27,414 nt of DNA. Origin: a virus. Below the pieces are notes generated by a model. It was not told the origin of the DNA and did no database searches. It saw only the letters and a list, made by a program, of their open reading frames with translations. A program made the position numbers and the translations under genes. Location: the IMG/VR virus record IMGVR_UViG_3300030333_003456, positions 1-27,414 of that record. One strand, written 5' to 3'. Positions 1 to 20,500 of this stretch are shown here, one piece after another. Position 1 is the stretch's first letter. Every line of letters starts with the position of its first letter.

Positions 1-1128
1 ATCTAAGTCAACATAAGATGGTGATAATGTTTTAACTCTATATCCTTTAACATATGCTGCACCTGATCCAAATTCTACTGCATACTTACTTTCTGACGCA
101 GTACCCTCTTGTGCTGTAGTAGCACCAACAGCATATACACCATTATTAAATCCGTCATCAAGATTCTCTCTAAGATTAATAGCAAAATCTTTTACAATAT
201 AATCTCCAGATTCTTCATAAGTTCTAATAGCAAGAGACTTTTCTAACTCATCATATGCACTACGATCTAAAAGTTTCTCAACCTTACTTGCGTTAATTCT
301 TAATAGCTCAATGAAGTTCTTATCAGCATCATCTGTAAGAAGTTTCTTAATGAGCTTGGTTGTTATTCTGAACCTGTGAGAACCAGGAGCAGCATAATTA
401 GATGTTCCTGCAGCGTTATCATTGAGGCTAAGGTCATCTTCTGGGGTAATGATGGATTCTTGTATGTCAAGTCCAACTCGATAGGAGGGGTTACTTCCAT
501 ATTGATCTAATAAAATATATTGATAAGGTACATCTACAAAGAAACCTCTAATGTAGTATACACCAGTTTGTACATATGCAACAGATCCTTTTTGTAAAGC
601 ATCTGTTGGTAGTAATTGAGCAAATGGCGATCCAACTTCAATTAGAGTAGTACCAAATGTAATCGCAGATGTAGTTACTAACTGTTCATTATTTGAAAAT
701 GTTTGTTGTGTATTTGCTGTACCACCAGACTCAGTATACTTAACATAAAGGGTTATATAACCTTTATCTGAATCAGTAGCTGAAATACTATATAATACTT
801 TTGCTTTAACACCAGAAGTCAAACCTGTAATAATCTTACCGTTTAACTGTGAGCGATATAATTCTACGTCAGCACCCAAGAATGACTCTTGAAGCATGAT
901 ACAATCAACATTCAGGTCATAACCAATCTGACCAGGAATAACCATTGCACCATCTTTAAATAGGTGCGATCCAACGTTCTCAATCTGATTCTGTTGAATC
1001 GATTGCATTGTTGTAAGTTCCCTTGCCTGTATTGGGAAGCCAGGTCTAAACAGCACTCGATAAAAGTTCTTACTCTTATCAAAGTCGTCGTAATACGGGG
1101 TTACATTTAAATTAGTATTTTGTGCCAT
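1..1128 (-). CDS. DUF4815-type phage structural protein, N-terminal 376 residues (3' end outside window)
   Basis: The frame is open from an ATG at 1128 to the left edge, giving 376 residues with no stop. The start (MAQNTNLNVTPYYDDFD, then YRVLFRPGFPIQARELTTMQ) is the conserved opening of the DUF4815 family, which occurs in tail or baseplate modules of T4-like marine phages. Further in are blocks typical of that family: KVEKLLDRSAYDELEKSLA, YIVKDFAINLRENL and, at the edge, AAYVKGYRVKTLSPSYVDL. Its biochemical role is not known to me; a baseplate-periphery or fibre-attachment role is inferred from position, where T4 carries genes 9 and 10. It begins 4 nt after the gp8 stop codon with no strong Shine-Dalgarno sequence, which suggests translational coupling to gp8. 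Family assignment is fairly sure; function is not. Confidence 0.85.
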   Translation of the reverse strand, partial: MAQNTNLNVTPYYDDFDKSKNFYRVLFRPGFPIQARELTTMQSIQQNQIENVGSHLFKDGAMVIPGQIGYDLNVDCIMLQESFLGADVELYRSQLNGKIITGLTSGVKAKVLYSISATDSDKGYITLYVKYTESGGTANTQQTFSNNEQLVTTSAITFGTTLIEVGSPFAQLLPTDALQKGSVAYVQTGVYYIRGFFVDVPYQYILLDQYGSNPSYRVGLDIQESIITPEDDLSLNDNAAGTSNYAAPGSHRFRITTKLIKKLLTDDADKNFIELLRINASKVEKLLDRSAYDELEKSLAIRTYEESGDYIVKDFAINLRENLDDGFNNGVYAVGATTAQEGTASESKYAVEFGSGAAYVKGYRVKTLSPSYVDLD

Positions 1129-1132
1129 TCGT

Positions 1133-2665
1133 TTAGAACTCGATTACGATTTTAATGTCTTCTACTTGGTCGTTTGCACGACTAATGGATCTCCTATTAT
1201 CTATGTAAACAACCTGACCGCTATTTGATTCGATTTCAGGTTTTGCATATCCATTGTTAAACTTCATACCTAAGTCATATTCAGTGTTGTTAATAGTCCT
1301 TGAAGATGAGTTAGGAACAGCAGGGAAGTTAACGTCAGGAGCACCAGCAGCACCAGAAGTAGCACCGCTTATAACATTAGAACCATCAAATTCATTCTGT
1401 GTACCAGTAACTTCAGGGAAGATACCGTCTACAGCATTCTGATAGTATTTCAAAAGCTTTGTAGTTGCATTCCATGATATAACACGTGCACGAGCAGTAA
1501 CGTTAGTACCACCAACAACTCTTGTCTGTGTTATTATTTCGTCAGGAACGTAATTACCTTGGAAAGTAGGAGCAAATATAACTGCCTTACAAGCAGAAAC
1601 CGTTAGGTCTGATATAAGTTCAGCAGTACCATACTTAAGTGGGTTTGTAATTAACCCAATTCTTCTATAATCATTATCTACAGGGAAATCACCAGCACCC
1701 TCATCATATGAGAGTTTAGCGTTGATCATGACACGGAAAGCACCAACTTCAACAACTGAATCATATCCATGTCCATTTGGAGGAGGAATGATTACGTCAA
1801 CTTGACCACCAGTACCTGTACCAATACCTGTGATATTATCAACAGATATTTTACCGAATGTATATCCAGTACCACCTGATGTTACAGTTGCAGAGATGAT
1901 TTTACCGCCATCAACGACAATACTAACACGACCTCCAGTACCATCACCATTAATAGAGACGTTATCGTACGTTCCATTGTTGTATCCTGCTCCAGCAGCG
2001 TTAATTACTACAGTATCAACTTCACCAGAAACAGCATTTGTCTTTACTGCTGCGTTGGTAAAGACGGGCATATAATCATTAGAGAAGAATTTAAGGACGG
2101 AAGCCACTGGGATGGTGTACATATACTTCCAACGATATCCATCACCAGTAGTGACAATGGAAGTAGAAGTACCAGTAGGCTCAACTGTAGAAGGTTTACC
2201 ATTAGGATCAGAGGGTGAAGTGCCATTATAGATGCACTTATATACCTGATACTGAGAGTTTACAACATAAAAGTCAGAGTCATATAGTTTAGTAGCACCT
2301 GAGGCAGCAGTTTTACTTGGAGAATAGTCATGTCTGTACATGTCATAGGTGAAACCTAATCCACCAGTAGTTTGTTCTGGGGAAACCCAGTCAATTCTAC
2401 GAACAACCTGTACGGTATCAGAAGCAAGGACTCTCTTCAAAGATACCATATCATCATAAGAACCAGAAAATTCTGAGAATGAATCAACTGCCTGTGGAGG
2501 CGAGTTTTCATTATCCCATGATTGTGGTCTTCCAATGAACAGATACACCCTATCACGATTGGCACCAGCAGCCGTATCGGATTGAGTCGCATCTGGACCT
2601 TCAAGTGCCTTAATGAATTTTTGTGCTGAAAAAATTCTAAATTGATCAGTTAATAGAGCTGCCAT
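1133..2665 (-). CDS. 8: T4-like baseplate wedge protein gp8
   Basis: Homologue of T4 gp8, the wedge subunit that joins gp6, gp7 and gp10 in the tail baseplate. Blocks matching T4 gp8 appear in order: VYLFIGRPQSW (residues 40-50; T4 has an ITFGRSEPW-type block), RRIDW (89-93; T4 RRDW), GDGYRWKYMYTIP (174-186; T4 GDGYVWEYLFEIP), NDYRRIGLITNPL (331-343; T4 FRQISIITNPL) and the C-terminus GQVVYIDNRRSISRANDQVE (483-502). It is 510 residues, against 334 in T4. The extra length is a glycine-rich GxGY insert at about 212-297 and a longer segment at about 350-470. The ATG at 2665 is supported by an in-frame TAG two codons upstream. A late-promoter-like CATAAATA and an AGGAGG lie in the 38-nt gap before it. 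Confidence 0.93.
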   Translation of the reverse strand: MAALLTDQFRIFSAQKFIKALEGPDATQSDTAAGANRDRVYLFIGRPQSWDNENSPPQAVDSFSEFSGSYDDMVSLKRVLASDTVQVVRRIDWVSPEQTTGGLGFTYDMYRHDYSPSKTAASGATKLYDSDFYVVNSQYQVYKCIYNGTSPSDPNGKPSTVEPTGTSTSIVTTGDGYRWKYMYTIPVASVLKFFSNDYMPVFTNAAVKTNAVSGEVDTVVINAAGAGYNNGTYDNVSINGDGTGGRVSIVVDGGKIISATVTSGGTGYTFGKISVDNITGIGTGTGGQVDVIIPPPNGHGYDSVVEVGAFRVMINAKLSYDEGAGDFPVDNDYRRIGLITNPLKYGTAELISDLTVSACKAVIFAPTFQGNYVPDEIITQTRVVGGTNVTARARVISWNATTKLLKYYQNAVDGIFPEVTGTQNEFDGSNVISGATSGAAGAPDVNFPAVPNSSSRTINNTEYDLGMKFNNGYAKPEIESNSGQVVYIDNRRSISRANDQVEDIKIVIEF

Positions 2666-2703: not shown

Positions 2704-5700
2704 TTACGAACGAACAGTTGTCTGATATTCAATTCGTTTAATTCTATATGATGCTCCAGCATTACCATTAATCTTTTCTCCACCTAAAATTGCCTGTGCT
2801 ATAGCACCATTAGGAGTGGAAGCAAACTTACCATCAGAAATATTATTAGAAGAATCTGTGAAAAGAATATATGGATGAGTCCTATATGAATTATCTATTG
2901 TCTGTTGATAACCATACCCACCATTAGTAATAGTAATAGAAGCAACTTGGTCTGCTGCGGTTGTCATATTTACAGTAGCAGTTGCTTGTATATCTCCCAT
3001 AGCACCACCCCAAGGAATAGTTTCGCTATTTCTGCTTTCAGTAGCAGGAGAAGTTGGACCCTGAATCTCTAATAATGGAGTAGAACTATAGTTCTGTCCA
3101 GAATCCTGAATAACAAAATCAATAATAGTTGAATCATGAGAAAACTCATAAAGATAACCAGCAATACCAACATTGATATTACCTGTGTTATATGGAGTAA
3201 TATCCTTAAGTGTAAGAATACCATTTGAAGGATCCCATGATACACAGGTTCCTCTAACTCCAGAAACTGCACCAGTTACAAGTTCATCAACACCAAAGTT
3301 TTGACCATTGTTATCTGTTGCCAATTCCACATATATCTTAACAAGTGCTGTATGGTCTACACCATCACTTAGACCACCTGCACCTGTAATTGTTGCATAC
3401 TTGAATGGAATAGCTGCGTCCTTAATATTATCACCAACTTGGAATAAGGTTGTATTAGTACCACCAAGGGTTTCTTCAATACCATATAATGAATTATAGA
3501 TACCACCGTCAAGACTAATTTGATTAAGGAAATCAGTACCAGTATTTACCAAATCAGGAATACCATCTCCAACTGGCGGACCTGCAGGTATAAGATCTTG
3601 GAATGCCTTATCTTGTAAAGTTGTAATAGGAACTGTTAATGTTGTAATAACACTTCCAGTAGAATCTACAACAACATGAGGATCAAATCCACTTGGAGCA
3701 CTATCAGCAACACCAGCATCAAACTGAACAATAGCATCCTCAGTAGAAGGAAGACCACCGTCAATAAATGCTAATTCATCAATTTCAAATGTAACTAACA
3801 GTGCTCTTGTAGCTGGATCCCAATCATATACTTTAGCAACCTTATTACTAGAGTTTTCAACTCTTCTTATAACTCTGTCACCAACATTAAACTTATAAGT
3901 TGAATTACCCTCAGAATCATTTTGTCCAGCATCAAGTATAATACGCTGATCATAATTAAAGTTTACACCCCTTGTTAAACCTGAGAACTTACCAGCAGAT
4001 TTAGAAGTATAAGAAATTGTTTCTGTGTCTACAATAATCTGACCTGATCCTGGATATGCATCTGTAGAATCAACAAATACATCCGAATCAGATGCACCAA
4101 GAGCTTTAACTAATCCAGTTAAGTAAATTGCAGAAGAATTAAATGCCTGTCTTGCTCTTGATTTACGCTTAAGATTAACAAGTTTAGTGAATATGACATT
4201 TGGTGAAGAGGTATATCCAGTACCAGGTTCAATAACATTAATACCAGTTAAAGCACCTTGATTAATAACTGCCTCTGCTTTAGCACCTAATCCTCCACCA
4301 CCAGTAATTAAAACATATGGAGGTTCTTCATAATATTCACCAGGATTTACAACACTAATTGATGTAACCTTACCAAGTTTATCAATAGTAGCAGCACCTT
4401 GAGCACCTTGTCCTCCACCACCTTCAAATATAAGTGTTGGTGGAGTTGCATAATCTCTACCTGTATTGGTTAATGATAAACCAGTAACTGTTTGTACAAC
4501 AGGATTACCAGTAGCACCTGTTCCACCACCACCAAGAATTTTTGCAGTAGCATTACCAAAATAATTATCACCCTTCTTGGTCATCTTAATATAAGAAAGT
4601 TGACCAGGATTATCTGTACTCAATACAACTTCACCCTCAGCACCACTTGGGAAAGATGCTGGCATTGGAGGTACTGTACTACCTTCAAATAATGGTACAC
4701 CATAAAACTTAAGACCAATAACATAAGGATATACAGGATTACCTGAACCATCCTCTGTCATAAAGTAAGCATAGGTTCCATTTGGATACTCAGGAGTTAC
4801 AGCAAATTTACCATTATGCTCATCAAGAGTACCAACACCAGAAGCCCAAATATAATCTTGTGTTAAATCTCCAAGAACATATCCACCTTGAACAGTTCTT
4901 AATCCATGACCTGAATTAGAATAAGCAAATGTATACAGAGCAGCAGGAGCATTTACAGGAACAGTCCATCGCATTTCCCTAGTAGTTGCTAACTGAAACC
5001 CGCTAATATAACTTGCATATGATACTTCAGAACCATTAATATAATATTTTACTCCTTCTACATTTGCAATATAATTTGTATTTCCTATATCTGATGTATT
5101 TCCTGTTGAATGCCATCCATCTTCAGTAGCAGACAATAGTAAATGTTGGTTATCATTACTCGAATCATTTTGTTGGAATATATAAGTCTTTCCTCGTTTT
5201 AAATCTAAGAAGTTTGGTGTTGAACCATCAAATAAGAATTTACCACTAGCTACAGTAACAACATATGTGACTGTACTTACAGTTGTTACTTCTGGACGAG
5301 CACCTGGAAGTTCACCAGCAGTTCTTAATCTATAACCAGATACCTCTCTAGCAACAGCACCAGAAGCATTATATCCCCAAGGACCATAAATGGGATATCC
5401 ATCATAAGACATACCCAAGATCTTAGAGTGTCCATCTACATGTCTTGAATAGTCAGGACCAGTAGCAAAGAAATCTGTAATGTAATAATCATTTACTGGA
5501 GGAGTATTATCTGGAGTGCTATCAAAGATCATATAACCTTCATCACCTGAATATCCAGACATATGTCTATGATACTTACAGTAATAATAGATTTTATTAG
5601 TTTCATCACTATTCATTATGAATAGAGGTGCAAACTCATTCTCATAATCAGTTGATGGTGCTGCACTTGCACCAGTACTATTATAATAAAGAGTACCACT

Positions 5701-7272
5701 ATTCAATAAACCATCAGCAGTCGTACTAAACTGCATCGGATGACCATGAGGATGAAGATTAGAAGGTTGGTTACTGGTATCTGCTTGATTCCACTTAATT
5801 AAATAATTTGCTTGAACCTTAATATCTTCTGGAGCAAAATAATATTGTCCAGGAACAAAGGAACCAAATTCAGCAGCATCCGTACCAAAGTCGATATAGA
5901 ATACACCGTTAGTAAGAAGTGTAGGAACTGCATTAACTCTAAATGAGAAACCAGTAGATCCTAAAAACTTATCACCTTCAGAAAAACTACCTTCTGTTTG
6001 TCTTAAATATACTCTTGTTACTTGATTTGTATTATCTCTTACTACCTTAGCAATTATACCTTGACCATTACCACCAATCTCACCTACATTTCTACCAACT
6101 TCTACCTGACCTAAAGTCTCATCAACTTGATTAACTACCAACATTATATTATCAAACTCGGTCTTAATATTCCAAGTAAATTGTCTTATCTTACCCCAAT
6201 CAAATACACCATTTCTCTGAGCAAATTCAGTAATAGTCTTACTTGACTGATAATACTGAATATTACTATCAACTATTGCATCATAAGCATTTGTATTTTT
6301 AAGATAATCGTACTTAACAGTATCAATAGAAAAGTTAGTGGGAGTTCCACCTGTTGTACCCCATTCTGGAGTATGGATTAATCCACCGTTTGCTAGAATC
6401 CCAGTAACTTTATTTAATTGCTCTTCTCTGGCACCAGGGTCAGGTACATCTTTACCACCCCTGTAAATGAAAGTTTGATTGAATGTGCGATCTTTTATTC
6501 CACCACCACTATAGACTGCACCTGCCAATGCAGATTTAAACGTATGTGCAGTAGTATTAGTAGAAGGTGCAACACCTAAAACTTGTATAGTAATACTATC
6601 AACAGTAGTATTATTAACTAAAATATTGACGTTATGAACTGGATCAGTTGTACGAGGATAGGTATGATCTGTAGCATGATTATCCTGAGCACAAGTAAAC
6701 GTTATAGAATTTGGTAATAACTTAATATAATCTCCAGGACTATAACTATGACTACCAATAGTCAAAACCATACTACCTGTAGTAGGGTTATAGGTAGCTT
6801 GAGTAGGAGTATATGCTGCTAATGTAGTACCAGGACTACCACCAGGAACTCTTTCCTCTGCTATTGGTGTAGGTTTTGGATGATTGTCCGCAACAATTGC
6901 AAGTCTATCTGTTGTCCCTGAGAACGTTCCAGTAGTTGCAGAGTTAGGATGAGTCTGCCAAATTTTATTGACATCAAAAGATGTTATAACATTAGGAGTT
7001 TCATCCTGAGGAACAATTTGTAATCTTAAAGGATCATATCCTCTACCTCGATTTAAAACCCTAACATGAATAATCTGACCTGAGTCATCATCAATAATAG
7101 GATATAATAATGCTTCAACATCTGGTGTGCCACATCCCTGTATAGTCAAACGAGGAGGATCATCTGACGAATAGGATGCACCACCGTTAACTACTTTGAC
7201 CGCACGAACTCCAAATATTTCATCAAAAATAGGTTCAATGACGGCACCAGAACCAGGAACTGTTCTTGCCAT
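2704..7272 (-). CDS. Large YHYH / cupredoxin-domain virion structural protein (1,522 aa)
   Basis: Its N-terminus (MARTVPGSGAVIEPIFDEIF) resembles the YHYH-domain structural proteins of T4-like cyanophages. Visible parts are: GxGY-type repeats at about 26-86; one CxxD...HTYPR repeat of the kind found in the giant protein at about 155-250; a cupredoxin-like region at about 480-585 with HPHGHP (507-512) and CKYHRHM (565-571); a YHYH-family core SYDGYPIYGPWGY at 622-634; a second cupredoxin-like stretch at about 675-800 without the cysteine; three GxGY/GGGG repeats at about 890-1030; and a mixed beta-rich C-terminus with more GxGY units at about 1385-1455. It starts 5 nt after the preceding stop codon with no clear Shine-Dalgarno, so coupled translation is likely. 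A role in the baseplate or fibres is inferred from lying between a fibre-like gene and gp8. No enzyme activity can be claimed. Confidence 0.85.
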   Translation of the reverse strand: MARTVPGSGAVIEPIFDEIFGVRAVKVVNGGASYSSDDPPRLTIQGCGTPDVEALLYPIIDDDSGQIIHVRVLNRGRGYDPLRLQIVPQDETPNVITSFDVNKIWQTHPNSATTGTFSGTTDRLAIVADNHPKPTPIAEERVPGGSPGTTLAAYTPTQATYNPTTGSMVLTIGSHSYSPGDYIKLLPNSITFTCAQDNHATDHTYPRTTDPVHNVNILVNNTTVDSITIQVLGVAPSTNTTAHTFKSALAGAVYSGGGIKDRTFNQTFIYRGGKDVPDPGAREEQLNKVTGILANGGLIHTPEWGTTGGTPTNFSIDTVKYDYLKNTNAYDAIVDSNIQYYQSSKTITEFAQRNGVFDWGKIRQFTWNIKTEFDNIMLVVNQVDETLGQVEVGRNVGEIGGNGQGIIAKVVRDNTNQVTRVYLRQTEGSFSEGDKFLGSTGFSFRVNAVPTLLTNGVFYIDFGTDAAEFGSFVPGQYYFAPEDIKVQANYLIKWNQADTSNQPSNLHPHGHPMQFSTTADGLLNSGTLYYNSTGASAAPSTDYENEFAPLFIMNSDETNKIYYYCKYHRHMSGYSGDEGYMIFDSTPDNTPPVNDYYITDFFATGPDYSRHVDGHSKILGMSYDGYPIYGPWGYNASGAVAREVSGYRLRTAGELPGARPEVTTVSTVTYVVTVASGKFLFDGSTPNFLDLKRGKTYIFQQNDSSNDNQHLLLSATEDGWHSTGNTSDIGNTNYIANVEGVKYYINGSEVSYASYISGFQLATTREMRWTVPVNAPAALYTFAYSNSGHGLRTVQGGYVLGDLTQDYIWASGVGTLDEHNGKFAVTPEYPNGTYAYFMTEDGSGNPVYPYVIGLKFYGVPLFEGSTVPPMPASFPSGAEGEVVLSTDNPGQLSYIKMTKKGDNYFGNATAKILGGGGTGATGNPVVQTVTGLSLTNTGRDYATPPTLIFEGGGGQGAQGAATIDKLGKVTSISVVNPGEYYEEPPYVLITGGGGLGAKAEAVINQGALTGINVIEPGTGYTSSPNVIFTKLVNLKRKSRARQAFNSSAIYLTGLVKALGASDSDVFVDSTDAYPGSGQIIVDTETISYTSKSAGKFSGLTRGVNFNYDQRIILDAGQNDSEGNSTYKFNVGDRVIRRVENSSNKVAKVYDWDPATRALLVTFEIDELAFIDGGLPSTEDAIVQFDAGVADSAPSGFDPHVVVDSTGSVITTLTVPITTLQDKAFQDLIPAGPPVGDGIPDLVNTGTDFLNQISLDGGIYNSLYGIEETLGGTNTTLFQVGDNIKDAAIPFKYATITGAGGLSDGVDHTALVKIYVELATDNNGQNFGVDELVTGAVSGVRGTCVSWDPSNGILTLKDITPYNTGNINVGIAGYLYEFSHDSTIIDFVIQDSGQNYSSTPLLEIQGPTSPATESRNSETIPWGGAMGDIQATATVNMTTAADQVASITITNGGYGYQQTIDNSYRTHPYILFTDSSNNISDGKFASTPNGAIAQAILGGEKINGNAGASYRIKRIEYQTTVRS
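5365..5442 (-). other. YHYH-family core motif in the 1,522-aa protein
   Basis: Residues 611-634 contain GHSKILGMSYDGYPIYGPWGY-type sequence, matching the signature GxAxDGxPIYG block of the YHYH family (PF14240). The family's name-giving YHYH tetrad is not present as such; the upstream CKYHRHM lies where it would be expected. Confidence 0.7.
5526..5835 (-). other. Cupredoxin-like region in the 1,522-aa protein (HPHGHP...CKYHRHM)
   Basis: Residues about 480-583 read like a blue-copper fold: a strand ending IKW, then HPHGHPMQF, then YYYCKYHRHMSG. Cys565, His568 and Met571 have the C-x2-H-x2-M spacing of the amicyanin copper loop, and a His from the HPHGHP motif would be the fourth ligand. The copper site is inferred from spacing alone. 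Confidence 0.6.
6523..6810 (-). repeat. Single CxxD...HTYPR repeat, type A, in the 1,522-aa protein
   Basis: Residues about 155-250 carry YNPTTGSMVLTIGSHSY, then ITFTCAQDNHATDHTYPR (YPR codons at 6652-6660), then ITIQVL and PSTNTTAHTF. This is the same repeat that occurs 19 times in the giant protein. It is the only copy seen outside it. Confidence 0.85.
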
Positions 7273-7277
7273 TTATA

Positions 7278-8501
7278 TTATGCTACGTTGATTGTGCCAT
7301 TCATGGCAGCGTGTAATGTACATTGATAATAAAGTGTTGCAGGAGCATCCATTGGTACAGTCCAATAGAGCACCGTCGTTCCACTACCACTTTGTCCAGT
7401 AGTATAAGGAGTACCAGCTAAACCTTGAGTACTCTGAATCCTAAAGGGGTGACCACCACCTTGGATTGAGTTATCAAATGCATAGGTAAATCCTTTATAC
7501 ACAGTAAAAGTAGGATCATTTACAACCCCACTAAATCCTGGTCCAGAAACTGTATAATCTCCAGTTCCTACTGCATTCAACTCAAACCAAATGATAGGAC
7601 TTCTATTAGGTTTCCAAACAGAACCATCATAGAATAATGAATCTCCTTGAGTAATACCAGCAATATCACTGTCAGTTAGAGCAGCAAATGTTGTTGTTAA
7701 AGTTCCAGAGAAATCAACTGTCACCGTATCTCCAGTGACAGATGTGGTGATATTAGTACCACCAGCAATAGTCAATGTATCTGTTTGAGTATTTGCTGTT
7801 GTATTTCCAGTATCTCCAGCAACAGTAGCAAATAAATTAATTGATGCAATACCAGATGCGTCATCACCAGGCTTCCACTTACTTGCAGAAGAATCCCATT
7901 TTAAAACTTGATTATTAGTAGGAGCAACAGTAGTTGTATCAACGTCTGTTAAGGCATCTACTCCTGAATATTGAGTTAAAAGTTTACACTTAGTATTACC
8001 TACACCACCAGCAGTAATGTTAATATTAACATATGGATTATCATCACCACTTACAGTATAAAAAATCCCTCTATAATCTGCTTCAGCAGGAGCAACACCA
8101 GTACTTGCATACTCATTTTTATACTTTAGTTTAGTCGGGAAATCGATTGCTCCAGTCGTACCATCAAAACTATTAGTGACACCACCAACACCGAGAGTAA
8201 GATTTCCTGTTCCGTTGGTAGCGATATTAATATTTCCATTAGACGAGGATATGATAGAACTTCCATTTACGTCTAAATTAGCAGTTAAGTTTGTATAATC
8301 TGAAGGTAAAAAAGTTGATCCATTATAGCGTAAAACCTGTCCTGTCGCAGGGTTAGTGGTATTAACTGTTAAAGTTGTACCATTACCTAACGCAGAGTAG
8401 ATTTCATTGAAATTGTCGTTAATCTTGTCTCCACCTGCTCGAAGGGTATCACCCGTATTATCGTTAGCATTAGTTCCAAGACCAAGTGATTGTTTAGCCA
8501 T
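7278..8501 (-). CDS. Tail-fibre-like protein with C-terminal cupredoxin-like domain (407 aa)
   Basis: The N-terminus (LGLGTNANDNTGDTLRAGG, then KINDNFNEIYSALG) is the widespread phage fibre/adaptor motif that starts many tail-associated proteins. Short fibre-type repeats follow: GQVLRYNGSTFLPSD (54-68), NQVLKWDSSASKWKPGDD (197-214) and GDSLFYDGSVWKP (286-298). The last 100 residues form a different domain: FTVYKGFTYAF (332-342), GHPFRI with His351, YWTVPMDAPATLYYQ (379-393), then CTLHAAM with Cys394, His397 and Met400. This matches a type 1 copper (amicyanin-like) ligand set in order and spacing. The gene starts 20 nt after the giant gene's stop codon, behind a perfect late-promoter box; GAG 3 nt before the ATG is a weak ribosome site. 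It probably acts as a short fibre or as an adaptor next to the giant protein. Confidence 0.85.
   Translation of the reverse strand: MAKQSLGLGTNANDNTGDTLRAGGDKINDNFNEIYSALGNGTTLTVNTTNPATGQVLRYNGSTFLPSDYTNLTANLDVNGSSIISSSNGNINIATNGTGNLTLGVGGVTNSFDGTTGAIDFPTKLKYKNEYASTGVAPAEADYRGIFYTVSGDDNPYVNINITAGGVGNTKCKLLTQYSGVDALTDVDTTTVAPTNNQVLKWDSSASKWKPGDDASGIASINLFATVAGDTGNTTANTQTDTLTIAGGTNITTSVTGDTVTVDFSGTLTTTFAALTDSDIAGITQGDSLFYDGSVWKPNRSPIIWFELNAVGTGDYTVSGPGFSGVVNDPTFTVYKGFTYAFDNSIQGGGHPFRIQSTQGLAGTPYTTGQSGSGTTVLYWTVPMDAPATLYYQCTLHAAMNGTINVA
7281..7509 (-). other. Amicyanin-like cupredoxin domain at the C-terminus of the 407-aa protein
   Basis: Residues about 332-407 hold His351 (GHPF) and the loop Cys394-x2-His397-x2-Met400. 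In amicyanin the ligands are His53 and the loop Cys92-x2-His95-x2-Met98, so the loop spacing is identical and the His-Cys separation is similar (43 against 39 residues). The domain ends six residues after the final beta strand begins, as expected for this fold. Confidence 0.65.
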
Positions 8502-11500: not shown

Positions 11501-14500
11501 CCACTTATACTGAATACCAATACCAGCAGGATCAATAGTTGCAGTTGCACCAGAATCATTACCTGTTAATACATCATAATCCTTCCATTCTGTACCAGTA
11601 ACAGTACTGCATACAAAGAATTCAGTATCGATATTATATTCACGAACTATTGCAGTACCACCACCATCAGATGTAACTGTTTCACCAACTTTAAAGTTGC
11701 CAGTTATGTCACCAATAGAAATATTACGAGCAACTGAATTATCAGACATATCAGTTGTGATAATGTCATGAACAGTATCATCTACAATCTGATCAATGAA
11801 TGTATTGTAAGTCCAAGAACCAGCACCAAACTGAGAATTAACTAAAGTTGTAATTTCTTCCTTATAGTAGTTTCTATTGAAGAGTAAATTCTTAGCAGCA
11901 CCTCTACCTTCCATCTTAGCAGGAGCAAGAATATTAACTGCTATATCAGTTAATTCTTCTAATCTGCGTACAACATCTTCGATTGCTACAGGAGATAATG
12001 CATCTGTATATACAGGTTCATCTGTATGTTGAGCAACATATTGTTCAGCAGTTGCAGTTCCGTTAAGAGCAACTAAACGATTTCTAAGTGCATGCTCACC
12101 AATGATCTTAATCTGTTCAATACCATAAACTGTTGCTAAGAGTTCACTTTCAATATGATTCAACTCTCCAGCAGAAGTTAAGTAGTATTCCATAGCAGCA
12201 ATAGTACTATTATTACCACCAGTCTGAAGGTCAGAAATCATACCAAGAATGATTAACTTAAGGTCTCTCTGACACTTACCTTCACCTAAAGCACCACTTG
12301 GATAAGTATGTGCATTATAGTTTACACTGTTTAGTACATAAGTAAATTCTTGTGTGATTAATCCTGTAATCTCCTCTGCCATATACTTCCTATTGAAGTA
12401 TAATCTATCAGCAGCAATAGCATAATCATTATCTGTAGGAGCAATAATATCATTAACAGCAGTAACTAAAGTATCAATAGCAGACTTAACGTTTGCACAT
12501 CCACCACCATCTTGAGTAATACCCCAATCACCAACAATAATATCATCAGTATTATCATAAGTTAGATCACCAGTAATTGCTTGCTTCATGTAATGTGCAA
12601 GACGTAGGTGAGCATAAATTGACTGGAATACCTGTAATCTAATGTGTAACAGAACATCATTAGTACCAAGATAAAACTTAGCAACATTAGTAGTATTCAA
12701 GTTACCACCATCTTCAATATCTTTACAGAACTCTTCAAGGAGTAATGTTAGGTCAGTCTTACACTGTAATGTACCATCTGTACTACCACCTACGTTACGA
12801 GGCATTTCAGTAACAAGATCTGGATATAATGTAAGCATATCGTGAGATGTCTTATCTACGATAGGACCAGCATTTGCACGAATTAATGCAGCAGCATCTC
12901 TAAATCTGTTCCGTGTAGTCTCATCAATTTGATTAGTAACGATGATATCATTAGTAGCATCATGATAAGATACTGGGAATGGAACCTCATAGAATGCACT
13001 AACTTTACCACCAAGGAAGTCATGCTTAGGAGTTAACTTAGTAACAGTTGCAAGATGATCTACAGCAGGTGATAGAGTTGCTTGAGTAACAGTATCAACC
13101 AAGATATCCATTAAGTTATCGATGGTTGTGTATACATCAGTACAATCTGACCAGTTGTAATTTAATATTGAAACAGCATTATTTGCGATAGAAACTAACT
13201 GGTGAGTATTCTTAACCTTCTTAATAGCACCATATGCAGCAGATACAAATGTATGTGCAGACTGTGGTAAGAATGAAACAGCATTAGTTGTAGCACTCTG
13301 GAATGTATGAGTGTAATCTCCACCAGAACTAATTACTGCTCTCTTGATTCCATTAGCAGTTGCAGACTGGAATCCATGAGCCATAACGTTTGTTGAAGGT
13401 ACTGCATCCAGAACCTGAACATCAAATGTGTTTGTTGTTACATTAGAAATAGTTGTCCACTTACCACTAATAGGATCACTCTTTCTTGGATAAGTCTTAG
13501 TTACAGTATTACCATCAAGAGCACAAGTAAATGATAGTGAATTATCAGCGATCTTAACTTTCTCACCGTTAACGAATCCATGATTAGCAACTGTGATTGT
13601 CATAACACCTGTAGTTGGGTTATATGCAGCATTAGTTGCTGTAAAGTCGCTATTAGCACTAACGAATGTATGAGCAGTTGTGTTAGAAGATGTACCAACA
13701 TTAACTGTAATTGTATTACCTGTTACAGCAGTAATGTTAACAGCATCGTTGTATGCTGGATCGTCAGCAGATGCACCACCTTGACCGTTTGCACGAGGAT
13801 AAGTGTGGTTGGATCCATGACTATCTTGAGCACATGTAAAGGTTAGAGAATTGTTTGCAATTCTAATTGCTGTACCAACTGTAAGATTATGATCACCAAT
13901 AGTTAGAACTAAGTTACCATTTGAAGGATCAAAGGTTGCAGCAGATACTTCATGACCGATAATAGGTGAAGAACCAACATTAACTGTGATTACACCAGTC
14001 TTTCTTCTAAGTCCCTTTGTAGCAAATGACTTAAATGTATGAGTTGTTGTGTCAGAAGAAATACCAAAGTTAACATCAAATGTGTTAGTTGCAACGTTGG
14101 ATATTTGCATCCACTTATTCTGATAAGGATCAGTTGCTCTTGGATATGCATGATCAGTAGTATTTCCATCTAAGGAGCATGTCATAGTAAGAGCACCATC
14201 ATCAATCATTACCCAATCACCGTTAGACCATCCATGATTAGCAAGTGTGATTGTTGCAGCACCTGTTGCTGGAGTGTATGAAACGTTAGTTGGTGTATGA
14301 TGTGTATGTCCTACATGCTTAACAGGAATAGACTTAAGATCACCGTATGGATCTGTTGAACGAGGATAAGTCTTATTAGCAGTGTTACCATCCATCGAGC
14401 ACTTGAAGGTTAAACCATTATTAGCAATAGTAATACTTGATCCAACACTTATACCATGACCACTACCAATGGTTAGAGTCATATCACCAGTGTAAGCATC

Positions 14501-17500
14501 GTAAGTTGCTGCAGAAGGAGTGAATGTCTGGTTAGTACCAGCAGGATTTACATTAACTGTAATTGTTCCAGTTTGTCTCTTAACACCACCAGAAGTAGCA
14601 GATACAAATGTATGAGCAGTTGTGTTAGAAGAAATACCAACATTAACTTCAAATGTATCAGCAGTGATAGCAAAGATATCCAACCATCTATTATAAGTTG
14701 GATCAGTTACTCTTGGATAAGCATGGTTAGAACCATTACTATCTTGAGCACAAGTAAAGGTTATTGCATCAGCATCAAACTTAACTCTATCACCAGCAAC
14801 TAATCCATGTGAAGCAGATGTAATTCTTAAAATACCAGTTGCAGGTTCATAGTTAGCAGTTGAAGGTGTAAGACTTGTTGTACCAACAGAAGCAACAGGT
14901 ATTGGTTTTGCAGAGAACTCATCTTTATTAGTACGAGGATAAGTCTTATTAGATTGATTATTATCCATTGCACAAGTGAATGTCAATGAATTATCATCAA
15001 TAGTAATACTATCATCGTCTGTTATATCATGTGATCCAATAGTTAATACCAAGTTACCAGTAGCAGGATCATATGTCGCAGCAGTTGGAGTATATGGTTG
15101 GTCAATAGTATCACCAAGAGACTTACCAATATCAACAGTAAATGTATTTGTTGTTGCCTTTCTTACTCTTAGAGCAGAATTATAAGCAGGATCTGTAACA
15201 CGAGGATATGCATGATCTGTTCTCTTACCATCAATATGACATCTGAAGGTTAATGAACCAGCATCAAGTTTAATTGCATCACCCATCTTATGAATACCAT
15301 TTGCCTTAGCAGATACAAATGTATGAGTATAGTCACCACCAGTACTTACTACAGATCTGGTAATACATCCAGTAGTAGCAGATACAAATGCGTGAGTTGT
15401 GGTGTTAGTTGGGGATGTTCCTTGTAAAACATTGATAGTAAATGTATTTGTTGTTACAGCAGTAATTGGAACAAATCTGTTACTAATTGGGTCAGTAGCA
15501 CGAGGATAAGTATGGTTTGTTGCATTACTATCCTCTGCACAAGTAAAGGTTAATCCATTATCAGCAATCTTAATATGCTCTCCAACCTTAAATCCATGAT
15601 TAGCAACAGTTAATACTAAGTTACCAGTAGATGCTGTGTAAGAAGCAGTTGTTGGAGTGTAAGTATTATTTGCGTTTATAAATGTATGATCATAATTACC
15701 ACCAGCAATTAGACCACCAGACTTAGCAGAAACAAATGCGTGGGTTGTAGTATTAGAGGAGGAATTAACATTCAGAGTAATAGTTCCATCCTGAACCTTA
15801 ATACCATTAGATGTGGCACTTACATAAGTGTGTGCAAAATCACCAAATCCAGTAATACCAACATTAACATCAAATGTGTTAGTTGTGGAAGCAACAACAG
15901 GAGTCCATTGGTTAGCAACTGGGTCAGTAGCACGAGGATAAGTATGGTTTGTTGCGTTGCTATCTCTAGTACAAGTAAAGGTTAATGAATCAGCATCAAA
16001 CTTAACTTGACTATTTGCCTTCATAACACCATTAGTTGTAGCAGATATGAATGCATGAGTAGACTGATCATTCGCAATACCAATATTAACATCAAATGTA
16101 TCGGTTGTTACATTTTGAACAGTCAACCACTTGAGGTATGAAGGATCAGTAGCACGAGGATATGAATGTTGTGACTGATGATTATCTTTAGTGCAACTGA
16201 ATGTTAAAGCACCTTCCTTAATTAAAATTCTATCTCCATTGGTATATCCATGACTTGATTTTGTCAAAGTCAGAACACCTGTTGCTGGTACATATGCAGC
16301 AGAAGTTGGTGTAATCTCCGAAGCAGCAGTCAATCCATGACCATTACTGGTGATCTGTAGAACACCTGTGGTAGGAGCATAGGTTGCACCTGTAGCAGTC
16401 TTATTAGAAGTACCTACAGCAGTAATTTCAATTGGAGCATCATATGCTCTATCTCTCTTTTGCTTAATACAGTTTGTAGCAGCAGATACAAATACATGAG
16501 TAGAAGTATTAGTTGAAGGTATATCCTGTAATACTTGTACTGTAAATGTGTTTGTAGTTACAGCAGAAACTTTCAACCATTTACCGCTAACTGGATCAGT
16601 TACTCTTGGGTAAGTATGGTTACTTTGATTATTATCTAACTGACATGTGAATGTAAGTGAATTATCGTCAATCTTAATCCAATCACCAACTCTAACTCCA
16701 TGAGAGTTAACAGTGAATACCAAAAGACCAGTTGTTCCACTATATGTTGCAGTGGATGGTGTAAACTCATCTATAAATGGTCTTGGATAAGAATGATTAG
16801 ATGCATTACTATCTTGAGCACATGTAAATGTTAATGCTCTCTCAAGTAATTTAACTGTTTGACCAACTTGTAAATTATGTGATCCAAGTGTTAGAACTAA
16901 GTTACCATTTGAAGGATCAAATGTCGCATTAGACATATCATGCTTCTCAGTAGGTGACTTACCTACATCAATACTGATAGATCCATCTTGCTTAATAATA
17001 CCATTTGGATATGCAGACTTGAATGTATGAGCAGACTTGTCTGGAGATATACCAACATTAACAGTAAAGGTCTTATCTGTCTTAGAATTAATTCTTAACC
17101 ATCTTCTATAGAATGGATCTGTAGGTCTTGGATAAGAGTGTTCTGTAGCATCATTATCCTTACCACAAGTAAAGGTTAAAGACTTCTCAGCAATTCTGAT
17201 CTTATCACCAACAGAATAACCGTGCTTATCAGATAGAACACTGTTATTTCTTGCACTTATAAAGGTGTGTGCATAATCACCACCTGTTGTAACAACTGCT
17301 CTAGTAATACAATTTGCAGCAGCAGATACAAACTGGTGAGTTGTAGTGTTTGTTGAAGGTACTACATCAAGTACCTGAATAGTAAATGTATTTGTAGTTA
17401 CTGATTGGATATCAATAAACTTACCGCTAATTGGGTCAGTTACTCTTGGATAAGTGTGATTAGTAGCATTATTATCCTGACCACAAGTGAATGTTAATGA

Positions 17501-20500
17501 ATTATCAGCAATCTTAATCTTCTGTCCAGCTAACATTCCATGATTAGCAACTGTAAATGCCAATAAACCGTTAGTTGGGTTGTAAGTAACAGAAGTTGGT
17601 GTTAATGAACTTGCTTTTGGAACAAAGGTATGAGTACCAGCAGTAGCATCATTAGCAGGACCAACGTTAACAGTAATTGTTGTTGAAGTTATCGCAGTAA
17701 TCGTTGTTGCAGCATCATATACTGGGTCAGTAGTACGAGGATATTTGTGCTCAGTAGCATTACTATCCTTAGTACATGTAAATGTTAAAGATTCAGGTTC
17801 AAATCTAACAGATGTACCAACATCTAAACTATGACTACCAATAGTCATAACCATATCACCTGTGGTAGGTGTATAAGTGACTGCTGATGGATTGAATGTT
17901 ACTAATGGTGAAGCACCAACATTAACATCAAATGTATTAGTTGTTACATTTGCAATGTTTATAAAGTCACCACTAAGAGGATCAGATGATCTTGGATAAG
18001 GGTGAAGAGTGGCATTATCATCCATATCACAAGTAAATGTGATTGCACCATCTTCAATCTTAACTTTATCACCAAGAACTAAACCGTGATTAGGAATAGT
18101 TAATGTTAATACACCTGTTCTTGCAACATATGCAGCAAGTGTAGGTGTTAGATTAGTACCAGAAGTGATAGTTAAATCACCTGTTGAAGGAGTGTAACTG
18201 GCAGCAGTTGCTGTACTTGCAATACCATCACTTACAATAGGAACAGAATCGTTGTAAATAGGATCTGTTGTTCTTGGATAAGTCTTATACTCAGTAGTAC
18301 CACCCATAGAACACAAATACTTCAAAGAGTTATTTGCAATCTTAACGTTAGTTCCTACTTCTAAACTATGATCTCCAATACCTAACTTCAACCAACCAGT
18401 CTCAGGATCGTAAGTAGATGATGTTGGAGTGAAACTCTTAATTGGTGATGGACCAACATTAACATTAAATGTATTAGTTGTTACACCAGAGACTTCTAAG
18501 TATCCAGAACTTGCTTCGTCGGATATTCTGGGATAGGTGTGTTCAGACCTATCTTGGTCCATACTACACGTAAAAGTGAGTGAGTTATCAACAAGTTTGA
18601 TTCTATCGCCATTTGAAAGACCATGACTATTACTCGTTATAGTTAATACACCAGTATTCGCTACGTATGCTGCATTAGACGCTGTAAGAGACGATGCACC
18701 ATTAATACCATGAGAAGACTTGGTTAATGTTAATTCACCTGTTGCAGGGTCATATACTGCTGCCGTAGGAGTAATGGAAGTAAGTGAATTTGTTGTGGAA
18801 TCAGTGATAGTGGTATCAGTTGTCTGAGTTAGACCATGATCACCTTGAACTTCCCAAAGAGTGTTGGTTCCAATGTACTGAACCATTTCCTGAGTCTTCT
18901 TAAATGCCCAAAGACTTTCAGTAACTTCATTCTTAATTTCTTTTAATTGAACAGGATTTGCAGTCCTATCAACATAGAATGCAGATGCATCCCAGATATG
19001 ACTGTTACTACCGTTACGAATATCTTCTACAACACTCTTCAGTACATCAACAATATCATCAGCACAGTTAATAGATCCACCCTTAACAGTGAAGTTAGGG
19101 AATCTCTTCTTCATTAACCATACAACTTCTTGAGCAATAAAGTCTAAGTTTGCAAGTACTAAATCGCCAGCGTTGATATATCTCTGAGTATTCTTATTAA
19201 ATCCATTGTTGGCAATACCAACATTAACAGTAAGAGTTGTCCCTGAAACCGCAGTGATAGCAAGGGTTGTGTCGTATGCAGGGTCAGTTACTCTTGGATA
19301 TGTATGAGAGGTTTGATGGTTATCCTTAGAACAAGTGAAGGATAACTTATTAGCACCAATCTTAAGAGTGTCACTTGTTGTGAAACTATGAGATCCAATA
19401 GTTAATACTAAGTCTCCTGTATTAGGATCATATGTTGCATCAGTTACATCCTTCTGTACACTATTAGCAGTTATTGTAATAGCATTAACTGAAGTACTAC
19501 CATTATAGATGTGCTTACCAGCAACATCTCTTACAGTTGCAAGAATAGCATCATTATTGAAGAATTCTCCATTTGTAAATCCTTCAACACCAGACCAATC
19601 ATCAATATAATTAACACCATCATTACCATCACAGTGTAATAATAGTTTGGTATTAGAATCACCTTGGAATATACCAGCAACAGGAGTAAATGCACCAGTA
19701 TAACGGTTAGTTGTAGAAACTCTTACCTCATCAACATGACCAACAAATCCATTAGCACCATTCCAATCAGCACCAATTCTTATTGGTTTAGCAACATAAG
19801 TTGTACTATCAGTACCAGTTCCTCTTTCAACACCATCAATATAGATCTTACCAGTTGTACCAGACTTAACATATGCAATATGAGTCCAAGTATTAGCAGA
19901 AATGGTTGTTGCACCTGAAGTTACAAGATCAGAGTTATTAACGTTTACACGAACTTGACCTGCTTCTAAGTATAGTCTAAAAGCAACTTCATTAGCACTA
20001 CTTGCTCTTGTATCAAATATATCAGCAGTACCACTTACAGAAGCAGTAGCAGCACGAATATACATCTCAACAGTAAATGCACCAGATCCAAATGCAATTT
20101 CATCAGTAGATGCTTGAACAATGTAATCAGCAGCATTAGCAAATTCTAAAGATGCAGTTCCAAATTTCTTCTGTGCAGTATCAATAGCAGCAGCATTTTC
20201 AAAGGTAAAGTCAAAATAATCTTCACCATTTGCTTTACATCTACCAATCTTACCAAGATAAACAATATTACGTGCTTGGTTAAATCCAATAACTTCAGCT
20301 TTAGTATCTCTGGTTCTAATTACCTGTCCAGTATTAAAGAATCCACTACCAATTCTATCAGTGAAGGATAATTTTCTAACTCTTCCATCTTCACCAGCAA
20401 TGAAATCACCATTACTATTACCATATTCAATCTTATAGTTACGGATATTCTCATTCTCTTGGAACGTTCCTACCAGATTATCGTAAGGAATAGTATAGTT

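Follow-up and report, generated by a model that had tools for sequence, protein, structure and literature searches.

A two-type repeat array, with B units probably nested in A units, in the giant T4-GC969-type gene of a marine T4-like cyanophage fragment

Background

What is the repeating unit of a protein array in which two kinds of domain appear to take turns? The question is raised by a linear viral DNA fragment of 27,414 nucleotides (IMG/VR record IMGVR_UViG_3300030333_003456, positions 1 to 27,414; "the window" means this whole stretch), in which one giant open reading frame (ORF) of the T4-GC969 type contains 19 copies of a repeat of about 80 amino acids (aa). An initial annotation, made from the sequence alone, had sorted these copies into types A and B and had proposed that the array grows by A-B dyads, each of about 190 residues. 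The explanation that we hold to be highly probable is that the array would be a length-variable string of small all-beta domains of two types, belonging to the giant virion protein T4-GC969/PHROG_701 of a T4-like marine cyanophage and encoded in the midst of baseplate wedge genes, and that the coupling between A and B would arise as B units sit within A units. In one form of nesting, proposed for copies 14/15 and 16/17, B would lie between the last two strands of A; in the other, probable for copies 8/9, it would lie in the loop after the YPR motif. The A domain would then be discontinuous, its last strand or strands coming after B.

Two types of repeat unit

The 19 copies with an LTFTC...YPR core listed in the initial annotation were all recovered by hmmsearch (64-126 bits each against their own profile), scores that exclude a chance origin of the repeat signal. 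The span first given for them, 13205-19440, is correct to within a few tens of bases as compared with 13277-19450 (residues 2655-4712 of the giant ORF). Pairwise aa identity between the copies is 28-66% and Tandem Repeats Finder (TRF) detected no DNA tandem repeats in the window; the copies are therefore old, and a recent tandem duplication of DNA was rejected.

For a wider analysis, 1951 units in 130 ORFs were gathered from scans of viral contigs and from annotated phage records, and types were learned without supervision on 709 non-redundant full units, which were clustered once on their first 40 columns and once on their last 41. The front-half and back-half clusters agree for 673 of the 709 units (95%; mutual information 0.496 vs a permutation maximum of 0.0075), and the distribution of the type score is two-humped. 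In B units column 62 is W in 87% and column 73 is F in 93%, positions at which A units mostly have S, A or P and I, respectively; the last strand of A resembles TITVNVG, and B usually carries HTFVSA hairpin tails. A and B are two real, ancient types. The letters initially given to the window copies (A for 1, 3, 5, 8, 14, 16 and 18; B for 2, 4, 6, 9, 10, 12, 15, 17 and 19) were returned by independent tests: the unsupervised type score gives the same letter for 15 of the 16 copies with a full front, copy 8, which is too short for that score, is A by window-trained profiles, and in a maximum-likelihood tree a branch with 96/95 support separates the seven A copies from the B and front-less copies.

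Copies 7, 11 and 13 are truncated at the front, as had been noted, about 20 first columns being absent from each; by type score copy 11 is B-like and copies 7 and 13 are ambiguous. An HTF hairpin tail comes before 165 of 173 front-less units, vs 249 of 738 full-front units; the hairpin may thus replace the front that these units lack. Overlooked at first were the copies shortened at the back (3, 8, 14 and 16) and three front-only fragments of 22-29 aa, at 18772-18686, 18214-18149 and 16399-16313, which consist of the first hairpin only. These fragments precede complete units, and similar ones start the arrays of the isolates P-SSM3, P-RSM1 and Syn19. A stretch of about 135 aa after copy 1 (19177-18773; LDFIAQEVVWLMKKRFPNF...) looks helical, unlike the beta repeats, and a similar stretch occupies the same site in one relative (L007).

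Short A units and the B units that follow them

Units of type A that lack their last strand or strands (short A) are followed by B in 118 of 121 cases, as compared with 53% in within-array shuffles (maximum 65%), while full-length A units are followed by B in 92 of 189 cases, as in the shuffles. Short A was followed by B in all of 23 clusters formed at 50% identity, and typing by the front 40 columns alone gave 124/125 for short A vs 67/141 for full A. The thresholds that separate short from full units were chosen on the same data, the held-out loci being the sole check, and in these loci short A was followed by B in 29 of 30 cases at <90% identity to the training set and in 11 of 12 at <75%. 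Small column differences in B (Y/W at column 28), considered as a sign of its adaptation to a preceding short A, are confounded by relatedness and were not used.

The part missing from a short A was found in the tail that follows B. An A back segment was detected there in 40 of 44 cases in which A breaks near column 55 and in 54 of 75 in which it breaks near column 74, vs 32 of 91 tails after full-length units (Fisher 1.7e-10). Moreover, the column at which the A profile resumes tracks the column at which it breaks (Spearman 0.76): 26 of the 40 segments of the first class resume at column 56, and nearly all of those of the second at columns 70-73. In the held-out loci, whose units have <90% identity to the training set and are thus related to it but not copies, the same profile rendered an A back segment in 14/15 cases of the first class (13 at column 56) and 21/26 of the second (columns 70-72), and in 4/10 after full units.

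A comparison of occupied and empty sites covers copies 14/15. At the site before copy 16, 15 arrays without B carry a complete A (profile end 79-80); in the window, L002 and L004 (one lineage), L052 and L097 the site holds a short A, then B, then an end strand like ..TITVNVGxAGTNAQF|TPSAATY. When the arrays are aligned at copy 14, B stands out as about 100 additional aa ahead of the final strand of A. The window flanks, joined by script to mimic the empty site, score 252-299 against the complete A of the relatives, whereas a control of similar length scores 169-201. On these sequence comparisons, which show the nested arrangement, copies 14/15 are the clearest nested A(B) unit of 190 aa; copies 16/17, with the same anatomy, form another of 190 aa, and copies 8/9 are probably nested as well, B lying there in the loop that follows YPR. 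The order of copies 14-19 is thus A(B) A(B) A B, and the spacing of about 190 aa noted at the outset is that of the nested A(B) unit. Copies 14, 16 and 18 start 190 and 190 aa apart (570 nucleotides each), and the A-to-A distances of 573 and 567 nucleotides first reported fit a one-residue insertion in copy 16.

Structure prediction was in line with this arrangement. An AlphaFold2 model of copies 16-19, with 20 relatives in the alignment, is all beta (mean predicted local distance difference test score, pLDDT, 89.8; predicted template modelling score 0.68), and in it the last strand of copy 16 forms, at 65-75. In a second model, which stops after copies 15-16 and lacks the next B with its tail, the core of copy 15 has 86-95 and copy 16 has 66-85, its last stretch falling to 60 and then 30, as coil. 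This predicted loss of confidence in copy 16 when B is left out would agree with nesting, as supporting evidence only.

Weighing of the evidence and of alternative explanations

Several points weigh against nesting. The arrays are related and not independent, so that z-scores are inflated and event counts overstate independence. Three of the 121 short A units have no B next to them, two of these preceding B-like units under the threshold, and the rule is weaker in the small sample of isolate records, in which short A is followed by 8 B, 2 A and 2 unclear units. A-back matches are also present in those 32 of 91 tails after full-length units; no resumed strand was found after copies 3/4, copy 3 being short with nothing resuming; and the resumption of copy 8 is one segment alone, the empty-site comparison being confined to 14/15. 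The second structural model was built on a different alignment and its chain ends at the very strand tested, and other causes of the drop are possible. The difference between split and whole A can also be read either as insertion of B or as its precise loss. L132 has one short A followed by A, contrary to the rule, and in the ortholog group of L069, L080 and their relatives B comes straight after a short A near ORF residue 2132 without any A segment resuming behind it; this short A is either truly truncated or has its missing piece supplied elsewhere.

Short A units without a resumed segment, A-back matches after full-length units and the common ancestry of the arrays would all be expected if short A units were decayed or truncated by deletion, if the A-like strand after B were an ordinary B tail, and if the A-B order had been inherited from a few ancestral arrangements. 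We consider this quite unlikely, since break and resume columns correspond, also in held-out loci, the same end strand is part of a complete A in the 15 arrays without B, the rule holds in every cluster at 50% identity, and the array shows a constraint like that of the flank (ratio of nonsynonymous to synonymous substitution rates, dN/dS, 0.15).

The explanation implied by the initial annotation is that of a linear array of beads on a string, in which complete neighbours are copied together as an A-B dyad of about 190 residues. Besides the 190-aa spacing of copies 14, 16 and 18, it can draw on the order of units: over 68 non-redundant arrays A-to-B steps number 246, vs 188 in shuffles, so that the alternation first described stands as an excess over chance, but AA and BB steps are common too. 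It can also draw on a weak correlation between A-A and B-B identities across the dyads of the window (r 0.42, p~0.025, full alignment), which is 0.29 (p 0.25) on the core alignment and not significant in four relatives. On the other hand, similarity at lag 2 is not raised in most arrays tested, and in the window alone, where lag 2 is highest (51 vs 41-48%), this is as expected from two types alone. When the window array is matched unit by unit to L052, L049 and L057, the units have counterparts in place, with identities of about 42-80%, and the arrays differ by one unit at a time: L052 lacks copy 6, and L049 and L057 lack copy 15. A short A, furthermore, is incomplete without the strand after B. 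The dyad was rejected as unit of tandem duplication, as similarity does not peak at lag 2 in most arrays and copy number does not change by two. This explanation is largely refuted by the presence or absence of one B at copy 15 and by the discontinuity of A, and we regard it as improbable. The 190-aa composite is real in copies 14-17, but it is not the growth unit, and the "heterodimeric building block" once envisaged has to be abandoned, given that one chain holds both types, with B apparently inserted inside A. The sole clear block duplication is one of four units (lag 4, 75-78% identity), in L016, L020 and L021. These belong to a distant clade (with L022, L023 and others) that has four-unit blocks A A short-A B, between which long runs of HTFVSA/HLPQS hairpins are often found; some distant relatives have strict A A A B blocks.

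Another explanation would make the array a hypervariable region for receptor binding, in which pressure from the host drives diversification by single changes. The baseplate neighbourhood and the nearby LamG domains would suit such a role, as would the fact that between distant relatives the array (51-54% identity) diverges more than the flanks (61-68%). However, relatives at 92-95% identity keep the array as conserved as the flanks, with dN/dS of 0.147-0.154 (the N-flank values were set aside as an alignment artefact). The dN/dS of the array, 0.15, is like that of the flank, so that the array is under purifying selection, and we find point-by-point diversification hard to credit.

The array may be an adjustable arm or spacer, whose reach it would set, and which would hold adhesive parts (the LamG domains and the C-terminal region) out from the baseplate to make contact with the host; as a consequence of nesting, B would project from the side of the chain that A continues. 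A broader proposal, to which we would give somewhat less than an even chance, is that of a self-nesting family in which B enters A at two fixed loops in separate lineages, producing a jointed arm with B standing at the side, whose length and number of side domains could be tuned separately, by whole units or by nesting. Domain insertion in proteins is well known. A repeat family in which one member is nested time and again in its sister, at two defined loops and with both occupied and empty sites among relatives, would offer giant structural proteins of phages a concrete way to change in size and shape. Such proteins are large, are carried by common ocean viruses, are present in the particle of a relative, and have hardly any functions assigned to them. 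A correct domain grammar is needed to choose expressible fragments, to read predicted or cryo-electron microscopy models, and to compare host range with array length.

Features of the window

The features of the window are collected in Table 1. The giant ORF is the ortholog of T4-GC969, or SSM1_102 (YP_004322993.1; PHROG_701, annotated as "virion structural protein"), of Synechococcus phage S-SM1: PHROG_701 matches it throughout, with E=0 for the N and C parts, and identity to S-SM1 outside the repeats is 69.4% in the N flank and 66.1% in the C flank. From the comparison with S-SM1 the complete protein is estimated at about 8000 aa. The order from the giant ORF through the gp9 connector, the GC399 wedge and gp8 to the VrlC-type gene is that found around SSM1_102, and also around the counterparts from Syn19, P-RSM1, P-SSM3 and others; judging from these relatives, gp25 and gp6 are expected beyond the contig. 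T4-GC969 was found by mass spectrometry in purified virions of S-SM1 (Sullivan et al. 2010, PMC3037559). By analogy with this homolog, the protein of the window virus, which is uncultured and known from sequence, would be part of its virion.

LamG domains are located upstream of the array. At the N-terminus of the S-SM1 protein a match to baseplate wedge family PF23786 was barely over the cut-off (29.1 bits vs 27), and no sequence relative of this N-terminus was found in the PDB. The GC skew changes sign across most of the array with respect to the rest of the same ORF (13001-19000), probably as a result of the Thr/Asn/His-rich repeats.

Table 1. Positions of the giant ORF, its repeat units and the neighbouring genes in the window
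Feature	Position	Strand	Remarks
Next gene's start, VrlC position	1..1128	-	PHROG_358, DUF4815; cut by contig end
gp8-like baseplate wedge subunit	1133..2665	-	PF09215, PHROG_438
Baseplate wedge subunit with YHYH domain	2704..7272	-	T4-GC399 type
gp9/gp10-like baseplate wedge tail fibre connector	7278..8501	-	Pfam PF07880, PHROG_677
Giant ORF, 6295 aa	8525..27412	-	5' end open, gene start beyond contig
Array	13277..19450	-	19 A/B units, three front-only fragments, one helical-looking insert
Copy 1, type A	19178..19450	-	Full length
Copy 2, type B	18431..18685	-	After front-only fragment 18772-18686
Copy 3, short A	18215..18430	-	No resumed strand found after copy 4
Copy 4, type B	17894..18148	-	After front-only fragment 18214-18149
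Copy 5, type A	17603..17893	-	Full length
Copy 6, type B	17240..17602	-	HTF tail; not in relative L052
Copy 7, front-less	16937..17239	-	After HTF hairpin tail
Copy 8, short A	16763..16936	-	Break directly after YPR motif
Copy 9, type B	16460..16762	-	Probably nested in copy 8
Probable resumed A segment of copy 8	16400..16459	-	KRDRAYDAPIEITAVGTSNK, resembles A stretch DPAYDTALEITAVT; sequence and group statistics
Copy 10, type B	16025..16312	-	After front-only fragment 16399-16313
Copy 11, front-less	15659..16024	-	B-like
Copy 12, type B	15293..15658	-	HTF tail
Copy 13, front-less	15092..15292	-	
Copy 14, short A	14870..15091	-	Putative first part of split A domain
Copy 15, type B	14579..14869	-	Putatively nested in copy 14; site empty in 15 relatives
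Putative resumed last strand of copy 14	14522..14578	-	RQTGTITVNVNPAGTNQTF
Copy 16, short A	14297..14521	-	Putative first part of split A domain
Copy 17, type B	14006..14296	-	Putatively nested in copy 16
Putative resumed last strand of copy 16	13952..14005	-	RKTGVITVNVGSSPIIGH; sequence, model strand 171-181, group statistics
Copy 18, type A	13643..13951	-	Full length
Copy 19, type B	13277..13642	-	HTF tails

Copy number, distribution and fold of the repeat

The number of repeat copies varies among relatives between about 1 and 30. For the orthologous gene of annotated phages it is about 1 in S-RIM8, 2 in S-SM1, 6 in S-TIM4, 12 in P-SSM3, 12 in P-SSM7 and 19 in P-RSM6. A search of 84,980 cellular species genomes rendered three loci (L130, L131 and L132, labelled Euryarchaeota, Planctomycetaceae and Rhodobacteraceae), on two contigs of metagenome-assembled genomes and in one binned assembly; spread into cellular genomes was discarded, these being more likely misbinned phage contigs than hosts. 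No paper on these repeats was found in the open-access literature, most subscription journals lying outside it.

A sequence search of the PDB rendered no relatives of the array and, for the N part, one weak match to an arabinanase (E 0.014). With the model of copies 15-16, Foldseek against the PDB rendered the endosialidase barrel and the E1 FCCH domain (E 0.046-0.087, probability 0.75-1.0), and we take this possible small-barrel fold as a lead and not as membership; E1_FCCH (PF16190) and the endosialidase barrel (PF12195) were under the curated Pfam cut-off everywhere. Identity with fibronectin type III or immunoglobulin (Ig) domains was rejected, the chain-level Foldseek hits of the four-unit model having a best E of 3.9e-5, template modelling scores mostly of 0.08-0.14 and probabilities of 0.3-0.5. 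Matches in BFVD were to cyanophage structural, baseplate wedge and long tail fibre proteins.

Comparison with known systems

The initial statement that no named family exists for this repeat is right in that no Pfam or NCBIfam family covers it, but it occurs in PHROG_1276, 5342, 701 and 18802, none of which gives the repeat as such a named function. The consensus A and B sequences each match PHROG_1276 and PHROG_5342 with E of 1e-17 to 1e-22; these are listed with no function or just as "tail fiber protein", and A, B and nested units are not distinguished in them. Fibronectin type III and Ig-like arms, which came out on top in the search with the four-unit model, are likewise strings of beta domains, from which the array differs in having neither a fold match nor a sequence match to them. 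The endosialidase beta-barrel and E1 FCCH domains, which are among the top Foldseek matches, are small beta barrels; neither reached the Pfam cut-off. The barrel of endosialidases is, for its part, an insert within a further domain. The IMG/VR relatives with four-unit blocks (such as L016, L020 and L021) have the same units and follow the same rule of short A before B; their blocks have been duplicated by four, whereas the array of the window is old and position-specific. Among the closest known systems is T4-GC969/PHROG_701 (SSM1_102), which can be aligned over the whole ORF, has the same neighbours and contains the repeat. Between flanks that are 69% and 66% identical, the array takes up 244 aa with 2 repeat units in S-SM1 and 2058 aa with 19 units in the window.

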